DNA of 52,746 nucleotides from contig NZ_WJPO01000027.1 of the NCBI RefSeq assembly GCF_009649175.1, positions 1 to 52,746 on the forward strand, read 5' to 3'. The notes beneath the pieces are model-generated. The model saw only the letters and a program-made list of their open reading frames with translations, was not told the origin of the DNA and did no database searches. The stretch is from Rhodovulum strictum (GTDB taxonomy: Bacteria > Pseudomonadota > Alphaproteobacteria > Rhodobacterales > Rhodobacteraceae). This document shows, piece by piece, positions 3,905-50,287 of the stretch. Every line of letters starts with the position of its first letter. The first letter of the stretch is position 1. Position numbers and translations under genes: made by a program.

Positions 3905-6900
3905 ATGACGAAATTCGATGCCGAATGGGTGGCCCGCGAGGAAGCCCGGCGCGCCTTTGTCGCCGAGCACGGGCTTTACCGCCTCGATGACGAGCACGCC
4001 TCTTGCGGGGTCGGGCTGGTCGTTGCCATCGACGGCAAGCCCTCGCGCAAGGTCGTGGAAAACGGGATCGACGCGCTCAAGGCGGTCTGGCACCGCGGCG
4101 CGGTCGATGCCGATGGCAAGACCGGCGACGGCGCGGGCATCCATGTGCAGATCCCGGTGCCCTTCTTCTATGACCAGATCCGGCGCACCGGGCACGAACC
4201 GCATCCCGACCGGCTGATCGCGGTCGGTCAGGTCTTTCTGCCGCGAACCGATTTCTCGGCGCAGGAGGTCTGCCGGACCATCGTCGAGACCGAAGTCCTG
4301 CGGATGGGCTATCACATCTATGGCTGGCGCCATGTCCCGGTGAATACCGAGGTTCTGGGCGAAAAGGCCAATGCCACAAGGCCCGAGATCGAACAGATCC
4401 TGATCTCGAACGCAAAGGGCGTGGACGAGGAGACGTTCGAGCGCGAGCTTTACGTCATCCGCCGCCGGATCGAAAAGGCCGCCGCCGCGGCGCAGGTGCC
4501 GGGGCTTTACCTGTGCTCGCTGTCCTGCCGGTCCGTGATCTACAAGGGCATGATGCTGGCCGAACAGGTGGCCGAGTTCTATCCCGACCTGCTGGATCCG
4601 CGTTTCGAAAGCGCCTTTGCGATCTATCACCAGCGCTATTCGACCAACACCTTCCCGCAATGGTGGCTGGCCCAGCCGTTCCGCATGCTGGCCCATAACG
4701 GCGAGATCAACACGCTGAAGGGCAACCTGAACTGGCTGAAAAGCCACGAGATCCGGATGGCGTCGTCCGCCTTTGGCGATCTGGCCGAGGACATCAAGCC
4801 GATCGTGGCGCTGGGGTCTTCGGATTCGGCGGCGCTGGATTCCGTGTTCGAGGTGCTGGTCCGCGCCGGGCGCAACGCCCCGATGGCCAAGACCATGCTG
4901 GTGCCCGAAGCCTGGTCGCAGGCGGCGGTCGAACTGCCCAAGCCCTGGCGCGACATGTATGCCTATGTGAACTCGGTGATGGAGCCCTGGGACGGCCCCG
5001 CGGCGCTGGCCATGACCGATGGCCGCTGGGTCTGCGGCGGGCTGGATCGCAACGGGCTGCGGCCGATGCGCTATGTCGTCACCGGCGACGGGCTTCTGAT
5101 CGCGGGCTCGGAAATCGGGATGGTGCCGACCGACGAGTCCAGCGTGCGCGAAAAGGGCGCGCTGGGTCCGGGCCAGATGATCGCAGTCGACATGCGCGAG
5201 GGGCGGCTGTTCCATGACAGCGAACTGAAGGATCTGCTGGCCGCCAGCCAGCCCTTCGGCGACTGGCTGGAAAAGGTGCACGAGCTGGACGATACGCTGT
5301 CGGGCCTGGAGGAAGCGCCGCTGTTCGAGGGGGGCGAGCTGCGCAAGCGCCAGATCGCGGCCGGCTTCACCATCGAGGAGATCGAGACGATCCTTGCGCC
5401 GATGGCCGAGGACGGCAAGGAAGCCGTGGCCTCGATGGGCGACGACACGCCGTCGGCGGTGCTGTCCGAGAAGTACCGCCCACTCAGCCATTTCTTCCGC
5501 CAGAACTTCAGCCAGGTGACGAACCCGCCGATCGACAGCCTGCGGGAATACCGGGTGATGAGCCTGAAGACGCGGTTCGGCAATCTCAAGAACGTGCTGG
5601 ACGAGGATGGCAGCCAGACCCGGATCATCGTTCTGGAAAGCCCGTTCCTGGGCAATGCCCAGTTCGCGGCGATCGCGGCGCAGTTCACCTCGCCCATGAC
5701 CGAGATCGACTGCACCTTCCCGGCGGGCGCGGGGCCCGATGCGCTGCGCGAGGCGCTGGTGCGGATCCGGGCCGAGGCGGAGGACGCGGTGCGCTCGGGC
5801 GCTGGCCATCTGGTGCTGACCGACCAGCACCAGAACGAGGACCGGGTGCCGATGCCGATGATCCTGGCCACCAGCGCGGTGCATAGCTGGCTGACGCGTA
5901 AGGGGCTGCGGACTTTTACCTCGGTCAATGTGCGTTCGGCCGAATGCATCGACCCGCATTATTTCGCGGTGCTGATCGGCTGCGGCGCGACCACGGTCAA
6001 CGCCTATCTGGCCGAGGACACGCTGGCCGACCGGATCCGGCGGGGCCTGCTGGATTGCACGCTAAGCGAAGCGGTGGCGCATTATCGCAAGGCCATCGAC
6101 CTTGGCCTGCTCAAGATCATGTCCAAGATGGGCATTTCGGTGATCTCGTCCTATCGCGGCGGGCTGAACTTCGAGGCGGTGGGGCTGTCGCGCGCGATGT
6201 GCGCCGAATATTTCCCCGGCATGCACAGCCGGATCTCGGGGATCGGGGTTTCGGGCATCCAGCGCAAGCTGGAAGAGGTGCACCGCCAAGGCTGGCGCGG
6301 GGGCAGCGACGTGCTGCCCGTGGGCGGGTTCTACAAGGCGCGGCGCTCGGGCGAGAAACACGCCTGGGAGGCCAAGACCATGGCCCTGTTGCAGAAAGCC
6401 TGCGACAGCGCATCCTTCGAGATCTGGAAGCAGTTCTCGGCCGCGATGCGGGCCAATCCGCCGATCCATCTGCGCGACCTGCTGGACATCAAGCCGCTGG
6501 GCAAGCCGGTGCCGATCGAGGAGGTGGAATCGATCACCTCGATCCGCAAGCGGTTCGTGACGCCGGGCATGTCGCTGGGCGCGCTGTCGCCCGAGGCGCA
6601 CAAGACGCTGAACGTCGCGATGAACCGGATCGGAGCCAAGTCCGACAGTGGCGAGGGCGGCGAGGATCCGGCGCATTTCCACCCCGAACCGAACGGGGAC
6701 AACCCGTCGGCCAAGATCAAGCAGGTGGCTTCCGGCCGCTTCGGGGTGACGGCGGAATACCTGAACCATTGCGAGGAACTGGAAATCAAGGTCGCGCAGG
6801 GCGCCAAGCCCGGCGAGGGCGGCCAGTTGCCGGGCATGAAGGTCACCGAACTGATCGCGCGGCTGCGCCATTCGACCAAGGGCGTCACGCTCATCAGCCC

Positions 6901-8500: not shown

Positions 8501-8541
8501 CCGGCGATGGTCAAGCGGGCCGCACTGGGCTATCAGGCGCC

Positions 8542-11036: not shown

Positions 11037-12322
11037 GGCGGCGACGCCTCTTGCCGCAGGAGGTCGGGCAGATGTTCGGCCATCTGGCCCCAGCGGGCAA
11101 CAAGATCGGTCAGCGGAACGCGATCCTCAAGCGCCCGCCAGGCATCCGCCGCGGGGATCGTGCCGAACCAGGCGATGCCGCCGGGCGTGGCAGGGGTACG
11201 CAGGATCTCGCGTTCCTCAAGCAGGTTGTCCGCCACCACCACGGCACGGTCGATGCGAAAGCCCGCGCCGGGCGGGTGCAACGGCAGATCGTCGGGAAAA
11301 TCGCGGCGGCGCGCCCAGAAGGGCGCTGTGGCATGCTCTGCGATCTGGCGGGCGAATTCGCGGCCGACCCGGGCCTGATGAAAGAAGGTCTCGCTTTGCC
11401 GGTCCGACAGGAAACGCCGCGCCAGCGCCTCGGTCTCGGGGCCGGGACGGGCGGCCAGACTGCGGCGCACCGCAGTCGCGGCCAGCGCACCCGAAACCGC
11501 CCAGAACTGGCCATGCCCGGACAGGGGATCGCCCGCGGCGGCCGCGTCGCCGATGGGCAGAACGCTGAGATCGTCGGTAAAGGGCGGCAGCGCAGGGGCG
11601 CAATCGCGGATCACCAATGGCCCTTCGGGGGTCAGGGTCGGCAGCGGTGTCGCCTTTGCGGCGGCAGCAATGGCAGCGGCAAAGCGGTCGTCGGGCGAGC
11701 CGTCGGATTGCGCATCGGTGACGAACTGCACCCAGGCGCGATCCGGCCAGCCCTGCGCAATCCAGAGCCAGCCTTGCGCGACGGGCACCACCGTGACGGT
11801 ACGCGCAGCCCTCCCCTCGGCTGTCACCCAGCCCGAGATCGACAGCGTGGCGGGCGCGCGGCGCATGTCGCGAACGCCTGCATGGGCCTTGCGCCCGCGC
11901 GCGTCGAAAACCCGCGTTGCGGCAAGCAGTTCGCCCCCGGTCAGCAGCACGGTCGCGCCCTCGGGGCCAACCGCCTCGACCCGCCCCGTGGACGGGATCA
12001 GCCGCGCGCCTGCGGTCACGGCCGCCTGCCGCAGATGGTCGTCCAGCGCGGGACGGTGGACGATCCATTCGGCATTGCCGGTCGCGGGCAACCCGGCCCA
12101 ATGGCTGACGCGCGACAGCGGGCCGACCAGCCCGGCAAACCCAGCCAGCAGCCCCTGCCCCTCCAGCCAGCGATAAAGCCGCGGGCTCATCCCCTCGATC
12201 CGGTCTTCGGCGGCACAGGGGTCGATCAGCACCACGTCCAGCCCGTCACGCGCGGCCAGCCAGGCGGCAACCGCACCGGCTGGCCCGCCGCCCAGCACGA
12301 TCAGGTCATGGGGCTTCGTCAT
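11030..12322 (-). CDS. qhpG: Flavin monooxygenase QhpG for CTQ cofactor biogenesis
   Basis: A 430-residue FAD-dependent protein with an N-terminal [15 protein letters not shown] dinucleotide motif and a second FAD-contact region near [18 protein letters not shown], the arrangement of group A flavin monooxygenases and halogenase-like enzymes. In characterised qhp systems QhpG hydroxylates the tryptophan of the gamma subunit that becomes the tryptophylquinone. The assignment rests on family features plus position directly next to qhpADCBEF; alone I would call it only an FAD-dependent oxidoreductase. It is transcribed away from qhpA across a 221-bp shared regulatory region. Confidence 0.85.
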
Positions 12323-45063: not shown

Positions 45064-45198
45064 ACCCTCGCCGATCTGACGAAAGCCGTGGGGCTTGCCG
45101 AACGCCATGTCAGCCGACAACTGCGGCTCGCCTACCTCGCGCCGGGGGTTCTCAAGCGCCTGGTCCACAAGCGCGAGGCGCCCGCCGTGACCCTGTTG
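45064..45198 (+). pseudogene. Serine recombinase C-terminal remnant
   Basis: About 45 codons read TLADLTKAVGLAERHVSRQL, RLAYLAPGVLKRL and then a basic tail, matching the helix-turn-helix near the C terminus of large serine recombinases (GL-x6-R-x-LRLA-x-LAP). A TAG precedes it in frame, and it is cut on its right by an IS1182-like end. A ParB-type helix-turn-helix is a less likely alternative. Upstream, 44959-45063, I see no supported feature. Confidence 0.5.
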
Positions 45199-45314
45199 AA
45201 ACTGGCGAAGATCTTTGCCGCGCCGCAGCAACCACAAAAAGCCTGACAAGAAAGGCACCTGCGCCAATCACGAGCGCCAAGATCCTGCGCTCGCGAACGG
45301 GTGTTTTGCAACAG
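45199..45314 (+). mobile_element. IS1182-like end, left copy
   Basis: The plus strand encodes LLKLAKIFAAPQQPQKA and a TGA stop (45244-45246), the C terminus of an IS1182-family transposase, followed by about 70 bases ending GGGTGTTTTGCAACAG. Bases 45204-45320 match 49879-49993 in inverted orientation at about 92 percent. Only this terminal piece of the element remains; it interrupts both the recombinase remnant and the nikA-containing frame. Confidence 0.75.
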
Positions 45315-45777
45315 AATCGGCTTGCAGCCCCGCGATCTCGTCGCGCAGCAAGGCCTCGTCCCATTCGCCCATGGCATCGACCACCGCCACACTGTCGATG
45401 GCGTCGATCAGCCCCAGCCAGGCATGACGCTGGGCATTGGCCAGCACGGCATCGAAGTTCTTCTTGACCACGGCGGCATCGAACGGCTCGCCATTCGAAA
45501 AGGTCACCCCCGGCCGCAGCGCGAAGGTAAAGGTCCGCCCGTCCTCGGACACCGTCCAGCTTTCGGCCAGCCAGGGGGCGACGCTGCCATCGGCCTGATA
45601 TTTCACCAGGGGCTCATAGACCATCGACTGCGCGAACATCTGGTTCGGCGAATAGAGATGCGGGTTCAGCGGTCCGACATTCAGCGGCCACGAGAAATCC
45701 AGCGTCTGGGCCGGAGCCGCAAGCGGGGCGGCCAGCCCAAGCGCAAGCGCCAGCATGGCAAGAAGGCGAGTGGTCAT
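45315..45777 (-). pseudogene. nikA: Truncated nickel-binding protein gene nikA
   Basis: The first 135 or so codons are a clear NikA: a signal peptide (LALALGLAAPLAAPAQ) and NVGPLNPHLYSPNQMFAQSM, VYEPLVKYQADG and NGEPFDA, close to the E. coli nickel receptor of NikABCDE. At about 45375 the NikA match stops. The next 19 codons (GEWDEALLRDEIAGLQADS) resemble the ParB-like N-terminal domain of phage DNA methyltransferases, then the frame enters the IS1182-like end. Three-quarters of NikA is missing, so it cannot function. GAGGGA precedes the start. Confidence 0.82.
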
Positions 45778-45790
45778 GCAGTCCCTCGAT

Positions 45791-45805
45791 TGTTATAGTA
45801 TAACA
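45791..45805. promoter_or_regulatory. Zur-like palindrome upstream of nikA
   Basis: TGTTATAGTATAACA is a perfect 7-1-7 palindrome immediately upstream of the nikA ribosome site. It equals the core of the Zur box described for gammaproteobacteria (TGTTATANTATAACA). It is also A/T-rich enough to contain overlapping -10 sequences on both strands. Zinc control is inference. Confidence 0.55.
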
Positions 45806-45868: not shown

Positions 45869-45896
45869 GTATGAATCTTGAGAAAGATTTTCATAC
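45869..45896. promoter_or_regulatory. NikR operator
   Basis: GTATGA (45869-45874), 16 bases, TCATAC (45891-45896): an exact match to the E. coli NikR operator GTATGA-N16-TCATAC. It lies between nikR and the truncated nikA, 92 bases upstream of the nikA start, where it would control nikA. Confidence 0.85.
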
Positions 45897-45969: not shown

Positions 45970-46443
45970 CTAGAACCCCTGCCGCACCCGCAGATGGGCA
46001 TGGCTGTGCGGTTCCTCGTCCTCGTGGGCGTGGGTCTCGTGATGCTCGTCGATCGGGATCAGCCCGGCCGTGCCGTGCCGGATGCCGCGCTCCAGGAACA
46101 GCCGGGCGGCATAGTCCGACACCCGCGCAAAATTGTCCTTCATCACCACGATGTCGATGGTTTCCTGATGGTTGATCGGAATGCTGGTGTGGAACAGCAT
46201 CCCGTCATGGCGCGTCTGACGGCCTTCGCGCAGGCGCCGGGCCAGCCCCGGCATGGTCTGGTCCACCGCGCAGGAAACCACGCCGAAACAGCCCTGATCG
46301 GGCTGCGCCTCGGGCTCGACCGCCAGCCCGCGCCGGATCAGGTCGCGGATCGCCTCGGACCGGTTGCCCCCCGGCGAGCGGGCGATGTAGGCGTCGAGCT
46401 GCGCGGCCAGTTCGTCGTCAAGCGTGATGGTGGTGCGGATCAT
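45970..46443 (-). CDS. nikR: NikR-like ribbon-helix-helix regulator with altered metal site
   Basis: A 157-residue protein with an N-terminal ribbon-helix-helix (IRTTITLDDELAAQLDAYIA, GNRSEAIRDLIRRGL) and a C-terminal ACT-like metal domain (ETIDIVVMKD, ERGIRHG). It aligns without gaps to E. coli NikR, but the four high-affinity nickel ligands are replaced: His76 by Gln, His87 by Ser, His89 by Pro and Cys95 by Thr. Instead it has a 24-residue His/Glu-rich tail (HHETHAHEDEEPHSHAH). ATG 46443 is the family start. It precedes the truncated nikA and an exact NikR operator. It may sense another metal or use the tail. Confidence 0.85.
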   Translation of the reverse strand: MIRTTITLDDELAAQLDAYIARSPGGNRSEAIRDLIRRGLAVEPEAQPDQGCFGVVSCAVDQTMPGLARRLREGRQTRHDGMLFHTSIPINHQETIDIVVMKDNFARVSDYAARLFLERGIRHGTAGLIPIDEHHETHAHEDEEPHSHAHLRVRQGF

Positions 46444-49489: not shown

Positions 49490-49884
49490 TATCCGTCCTG
49501 AATCGTTTCGCCCTCCATAAGACATCATCACGCCAAATGACAGCCGGCAGAAAACGGACGCGGATAGTCAGCGCGGCAAAGCCAGCTCCGCGGAAATGGC
49601 ACCCCCAACCTCTCGCGGCAGCCTGCTTGAGCGGCAGCTTCGGAAAAGCCGCATCAACGGTCGAACGACAGCCTCGGCCGACCTTGCTGGTTCGCCCTGC
49701 TCGGTGGCGCCCAAGTGCGCCGGTCGGTCCCTGCTCGGTGCTGTCGCTCGGGCCGTCGCGGCCATGGCTCAGGCCTTGTGTCGCGACATGAAAACCAGTG
49801 CTCCGATGTCTCGGAAATGTCGGCCTTTCGCGGTCTCGCTGAACGCGGCTCGCATACGCGGCGAAGGTCCAGAGTCCGCCGATC
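49490..49884. other. Region without a supported gene
   Basis: About 395 bases between the lipoprotein gene and the right IS1182-like end. Open frames exist on both strands, but their composition (Arg-, Ser- and Ala-rich with no domain pattern) looks like chance frames in GC-rich DNA. It may be left over from the mobile-element events that shaped the flanks. Confidence 0.5.
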
Positions 49885-50287
49885 CTGTTGAAAACACCCG
49901 TTCGCGAGCGCAGGATCTTGGCGCTGGTGATTGGCGCAGGTGCCGTTCTTGTCAGGTTTTTGCGGTTGCTGCGGTGTGGTAAAGATCTTCGCCGGCTTCC
50001 GGAGGTTCCGGGCGGTGGCGGCGAGCAAGAATTCGTCATTTGCGCCACATGGGCCACATAGTCGGAGCCTTCCGAGGCCGAGGATGCGCTTGAGGTGCAC
50101 TAAGAGCATCTCGACTTTCTTCCTCAGCTTCATCGAGACCCCGTATTGTCTGGTCTTCGCGATGTCCCGGGCGACTTGACGAGCGTCTTCGTGTTCCTCG
50201 CGGGTGATGGATCGGAAGTCCATGTTCGGGCAGCAGCGCGACTTCGAGCGGCAGGCTTGGCAGGTGACCGTGCCTGTCGGCGAGGTG
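49885..50287 (-). mobile_element. IS1182-like transposase remnant, right copy
   Basis: Reading on the minus strand from about 50287, the frame gives CQACRSKSRCCPNMDFRSI and then KKVEMLLVHLKRILGLGRLR and EFLLAATARNLRK, the zinc-finger-like segment and C terminus of an IS1182-family transposase. It then reaches an end CAACAG at 49885-49890. Compared with the left copy, one base is missing in the CAAAAA run near 49956, so the normal stop is lost and the frame reads on. It starts directly after the histidine kinase stop; the N-terminal two-thirds of the transposase are gone. Confidence 0.78.

Follow-up and report, generated by a model that had tools for sequence, protein, structure and literature searches.

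Loss of the canonical nickel ligands in an alphaproteobacterial clade of NikR-fold repressors with a His-rich tail

A NikR fold with other residues at the ligand positions

NikR is the textbook metal-dependent repressor, and its four nickel ligands are taken as its hallmark. What, then, does a NikR respond to when all four are gone? The question is raised by a gene at 45970–46443 (minus strand) in a 52,746-nucleotide stretch of Rhodovulum strictum DNA, the whole of which is called the window here. The gene encodes 157 residues, with an RHH domain, a NikR_C domain and a His-rich C-terminal extension. Residues 1–131 align with residues 1–131 of Escherichia coli NikR (1q5v) without a gap (phmmer E 9.8e-19). 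In E. coli, according to the review PMC7055735, one subunit supplies the ligands His87, His89 and Cys95, and the adjacent subunit supplies His76. At positions 76, 87, 89 and 95 the window protein has Gln, Ser, Pro and Thr, as the original prediction stated, and an alignment slip is excluded as the source of the missing ligands because the alignment is gapless over 131 residues. The INH (residues 90–92) and ERGIRHG (118–124) segments do remain, as was also claimed. The loss extends beyond the four ligands noted earlier to His62; codon 62 (46258–46260, minus strand) specifies Gln, where all 45 canonical proteobacterial relatives have His. The four replaced positions lie in codons 75–95 (46159–46221, minus strand), a segment that begins with an Arg75 invariant among the variants described below.

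The protein scores above the cut-offs for Pfam RHH_1 and NikR_C and for NF002815 (93.8 versus 83 bits), and below that for TIGR02793 (88.3 versus 175.45). An AlphaFold model of the monomer, built on a 40-row alignment, has a mean pLDDT of 90.5 and a pTM of 0.70. Its best Foldseek match is nickel-bound E. coli NikR, its C-terminal domain fits 1q5y at 1.1 Å, and further structural comparisons returned only NikR and ACT folds. Relative to E. coli NikR (1q5v, 2hza, 3od2), the window protein shares the fold, the 131 gapless residues, the operator sequence, Glu30 and Asp34, and a nickel importer as the target, whereas all four ligands and His62 are replaced and a His-rich extension of 26 residues is added. 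The fold is likewise shared with Helicobacter pylori NikR (6mrj, 2caj, 3pht), which uses the canonical site. The structure of an H74A mutant of the H. pylori protein has been solved (3pht), and its His74 is presumably the counterpart of E. coli His62.

The variant clade and the residues it keeps

Relatives were gathered by whole-genome searches and one scan of GTDB genomes (80 of 565 confirmed matches). Merging identical sequences left 119 relatives, or 120 distinct sequences with E. coli NikR. By their ligand patterns, 79 are HHHC, 35 have Ser87-x-Pro89 without Cys95, and 6 are of other kinds; the set is biased towards relatives of the window protein, and the share of 35 in 120 should not be read as a frequency. 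When genomes were drawn evenly, the variant occurred in 5 of 16 genomes of the genus, 11 of 295 of the family and 17 of 390 of the order, and the draw of 385 genomes from the class held none apart from the window's own genome. Six weak partial matches covering fewer than 90 model positions (L142, L161–L165) were left unclassified. Five others (L013, L132, L135, L136 and L138) are listed as matches with internal stop codons, and for these the open frame was classified.

The 35 variants make up one side of a branch with a support of 98/100. In a second tree, from which columns 62, 75, 76, 87, 89 and 95 were removed and L139, L140, L141 and L084 omitted, they form one clade at 100/100; the grouping is thus not forced by the ligand columns. 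The original prediction had proposed a broad family alignment as a check on whether the substitutions define a subfamily with the tail, and they do mark a real one, with the His-rich tail motif in all members. A lone mutant or a sequencing error is excluded, the pattern being common to 35 distinct sequences. The named hosts include Fuscovulum, Rhodovulum, Salipiger, Ancylobacter, Kaistia, Methylorubrum, Martelella, Cohaesibacter and Pannonibacter, which we take to represent Rhodobacterales and Hyphomicrobiales. An extra variant, outside the 35, is carried on a plasmid of Roseomonas marmotae. In the genus, family, order and class draws, each genome gave a single match at E <= 0.001, with up to nine candidates per genome scored in the order and class draws; within this scope, an additional canonical NikR alongside the variant is unlikely. 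We found no description of a NikR without the nickel ligands in the open-access literature; subscription journals fell mostly outside that search, and one may be in print there.

Partly altered ligand positions together with His-rich tails also occur outside the clade, in Roseicella (L043, HQQR) and Marinobacter (L044 and L049, HQHC). These resemble the variants in both features but have other residues at the ligand positions and other places in the tree, and are not clade members. In three very divergent NikR-like proteins on long branches (L139, L140 and L141), the ligand positions read RQPY, RHHT and SHFS.

Within the clade, Arg75, Ser87 and Pro89 are invariant, and none of the 37 tailed canonical relatives has them at these positions. 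Position 76 is Leu in 18 variants, His in 9 and Gln in 8, and position 95 varies among Ala, Ser, Thr and Met. His62 is lost in 33 of the 35 and kept in 2. Three other invariant residues, Leu115, Arg119 and Phe157, are also found in some canonical proteins. Residues 3, 5 and 7, which we take to be the DNA-contacting strand, are Arg, Thr and Thr/Ala/Ser. Glu30 and Asp34, the side chains of the K+ or low-affinity site, are both present in the window protein and in 34 of the 35 variants; PMC7055735 has them holding K+ in the NikR–DNA complex.

In close pairs of variants, the core dN/dS is about 0.02–0.17, which shows that purifying selection acts on them. Together with the invariant Ser87 and Pro89, these ratios make drift unlikely as the cause of the clade's ligand loss. 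The window protein against that of F. blasticum gives a core ratio of 0.28, a rough figure at a dS of 0.50. Distant pairs, with dS of 0.49–0.59, range from 0.25 to 1.07, a spread that we ascribe to saturation of silent sites.

The operator and the nickel-importer regulon

The original prediction placed an exact E. coli-type NikR operator near nikR. There is indeed one, GTATGA-N16-TCATAC with no mismatches, at 45869–45896. It is the only match at up to two mismatches in the window (shuffle mean 0.20) and the only match at zero or one mismatch in the 3.8-Mb genome, where two-mismatch matches are at background (10 versus 7 for the reversed pattern). It lies 92 bases upstream of a nikA remnant (45268–45777, minus strand), a 169-residue frame whose homology covers positions 6–117 of the 501 of TIGR02294 and ends near 45370. 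No other nikA piece of similar identity was found, the five other matches being 27–33% identical. Between the operator and the remnant is a perfect 15-base palindrome, TGTTATAGTATAACA (45791–45805), resembling a Zur box. Compared by eye with the Zur sites of P. denitrificans in PMC5387054, it matches at 12 of 15 bases, and one of those sites governs a nickel/peptide-class transporter. The window's nikA may once have been under joint nickel and zinc control.

Next to the break in nikA is a fragment resembling the end of an IS1182-family element (45182–45321, plus strand), and a second copy lies in inverted orientation at 49878–50015 (minus strand). Both are 75–80% like IS1182-family ends on plasmids of Rhodobacterales, and between them are the nikA remnant, nikR, a zinc-type P-type ATPase and merR. 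On a Thioclava plasmid (L218), an IS1182 transposase adjoins a heavy-metal P-type ATPase. Because the only operator fronts a truncated nikA, control by NikR probably no longer serves a purpose in the genome of the window. The locus being decayed, the relatives are the better guide to the variant.

There is one exact operator per genome in 23 of 32 variant genomes (15 of 23, 7 of 8 and the window's own). The gene next to the site is nikK (DUF4198) of a NikKMLQO-type operon in 13 cases, nikA in 3 and nikR in 7. The three nikA genes, which are of the TIGR02294 type, are the window's remnant and those of G302 and G986. The seven sites adjoining nikR have a more distant binding-protein importer alongside, except that G088 has only a piece of a permease/ATPase cluster; the five importers tested score 88–102 as nikA against a cut-off of 393 bits. 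Five of the 23 sites are at nikK or nikA but not near nikR (G051, G951, G955, G302 and G979).

Among the nine variant genomes without an exact site, one-mismatch sites are found at nikA in G307 and at nikR beside a binding-protein gene in G233 and G177, and in G046, G765 and G182 sites at nikR have two mirror-image changes. G853 has three one-mismatch sites, the same as its control, G980 has only one-mismatch sites, and in G083 no operator was found genome-wide at up to one mismatch. For comparison, the exact operator is present in 7 of 19 genomes with a canonical NikR and in none of 11 genomes of the same genus that lack NikR, although a one-mismatch site occurs in two of these. The plasmid-borne nikR of Roseomonas is transcribed divergently from NikKMLQO, with urea and urease genes close by, and the best operator-like site there has two mismatches, which is not above chance. 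Urease genes were found near none of 28 other stretches, and urease is present in the window genome. Across the clade, the retention of the target and of the nickel-importer regulon is well supported by these sites and their neighbours.

This bears on the suggestion, made in the original prediction, of a switch away from nickel. Since the operator is kept across the subfamily at the promoters of nickel importers, whether NikKMLQO or nikA, or at nikR with related importers, such a switch is unsupported. NikKMLQO is described as a nickel ECF importer in PMC2667541, which proposes cobalt as the substrate of some NikK1ML1QO copies controlled by B12 riboswitches. Nine loci with NikKMLQO at nikR are free of cobalamin riboswitches. 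Such riboswitches do lead NikK-M-L-Q operons elsewhere, at 4499–4707 of L118 in the window genome and at 11986–12199 of L014 in F. blasticum. These operons are probably cobalt importers of the nickel-importer type, and the operator is absent from both at up to two mismatches.

The tail and how nickel may be sensed

The tail (residues 133–157; 45973–46047, minus strand) was described in the original prediction as 24 residues rich in His standing in place of the ligands. It is His-rich; its length is 26 residues past E. coli position 131, and historically it is no stand-in for the ligands, being present in many canonical relatives. His138, His140, His148 and His150 are in all 35 variants and His146 in 83%. 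All 35 variants have the corresponding HxH..HxH motif, whereas among the canonical proteins of the same large group it is in 27 of 45. The tail therefore predates the ligand loss and did not arise as a replacement for the ligands. The tailed canonical proteins (L031, L012 and L030, for example) share the motif and a predicted hairpin, and differ in keeping His76, His87, His89, Cys95 and His62 and in lacking Arg75. From the distribution, the tail seems to be dispensable only with the core site intact.

In the AlphaFold monomer, the tail is modelled as a beta-hairpin of strands 121–138 and 146–153 (block pLDDT 88–90), which takes in His138 at the end of the first strand, His140, and His146, His148 and His150 on the second. 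Since side chains along a strand point to either side in turn, His146, His148 and His150 would all lie on one side of it, as reasoned from the monomer rather than a tetramer. Much the same hairpin is predicted for the canonical L031, and it may accordingly serve another role. In four Rhodovulum-type genes, the tail has no amino-acid change, yet silent changes are present. Two other close pairs do have tail changes, L007/L023 with 3 amino-acid versus 1 silent, and L016/L028 with 2 versus 4.

We consider it about an even chance that these are NikR-fold repressors without the inter-subunit nickel site, with the fold, the K+-site residues, the operator and the nickel-importer regulon kept, and that they sense nickel through the C-terminal hairpin. 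The evolutionary form of the proposal, in which an alphaproteobacterial clade moved its sensing by abandoning that site and letting a pre-existing His hairpin read nickel while fold, operator and regulon stayed unchanged, we hold somewhat more tentatively. Sensing through the hairpin is itself a guess. By this scheme, the clade would have given up the site made of His76 of the neighbouring subunit, His87, His89 and Cys95 with the nearby His62. Plentiful nickel would bind the hairpin at His138, His140, His148 and His150, and at His146 where present, perhaps with the help of residues conserved in the core, for instance His79 or His92. The loaded hairpin would favour the DNA-binding form, and nickel import would be repressed.

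The main rival is an active form free of metal, with Arg75 filling the old site, and we judge it unlikely while rating it above the other alternatives. Arg75 and Ser87/Pro89 would replace the nickel bridge and hold the tetramer in its DNA-binding form, with the tail tuning or buffering. It draws on Arg75, present in 35 of 35 variants versus 0 of 45 canonical relatives and adjoining the cross-subunit ligand position 76, on the invariance of Ser87 and Pro89, and on the core having gained no new metal ligand. However, a permanently active repressor of a nickel importer would gain the cell little, and the tail motif is retained in every variant. It is less likely again that the core has kept its nickel sensing, at a site rebuilt from His79, His92, His123 and Cys52, with His76 in 9 of 35 and the tail as an auxiliary. 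The first four residues are in all 35 variants, but they are also in 73–97% of canonical relatives, and so none of them arose together with the ligand loss.

That the regulator responds to another metal, zinc or cobalt, appears more doubtful still. The window's Zur-like palindrome and its zinc-type exporter with merR would fit it, as would the Zur-controlled nickel/peptide-class transporter of P. denitrificans (PMC5387054) and the cobalamin riboswitches close behind nikR at 8507–8693 of L014 and 8888–9099 of L025. The zinc features offered in the original prediction as a hint are not seen at the relatives, though: the exporter with a MerR gene is in none of 28 other stretches, and the palindrome, at up to two mismatches, is in 1 of 30 other loci (L118, from the window's own genome), far from any operator. 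Cobalt is countered by the nine riboswitch-free NikKMLQO loci and by the operator-free operons of L118 and L014 described above. Very improbable is simple decay, by which nikR would be a leftover in this organism and its ligand loss meaningless. The sole exact operator does front a truncated nikA beside insertion-sequence fragments, but the window gene is intact, its core ratio against F. blasticum is that rough 0.28, and the ligand loss is common to a clade with invariant Ser87 and Pro89.

The window protein passes one automatic model for nickel-responsive NikR, and the Roseomonas variant is so annotated in the public record. Yet a whole clade is without the hallmark ligands while controlling nickel import, as judged by its operator and neighbours. 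It opens the question of whether the nickel allostery of NikR is tied to one site, or whether the site is movable within the fold.
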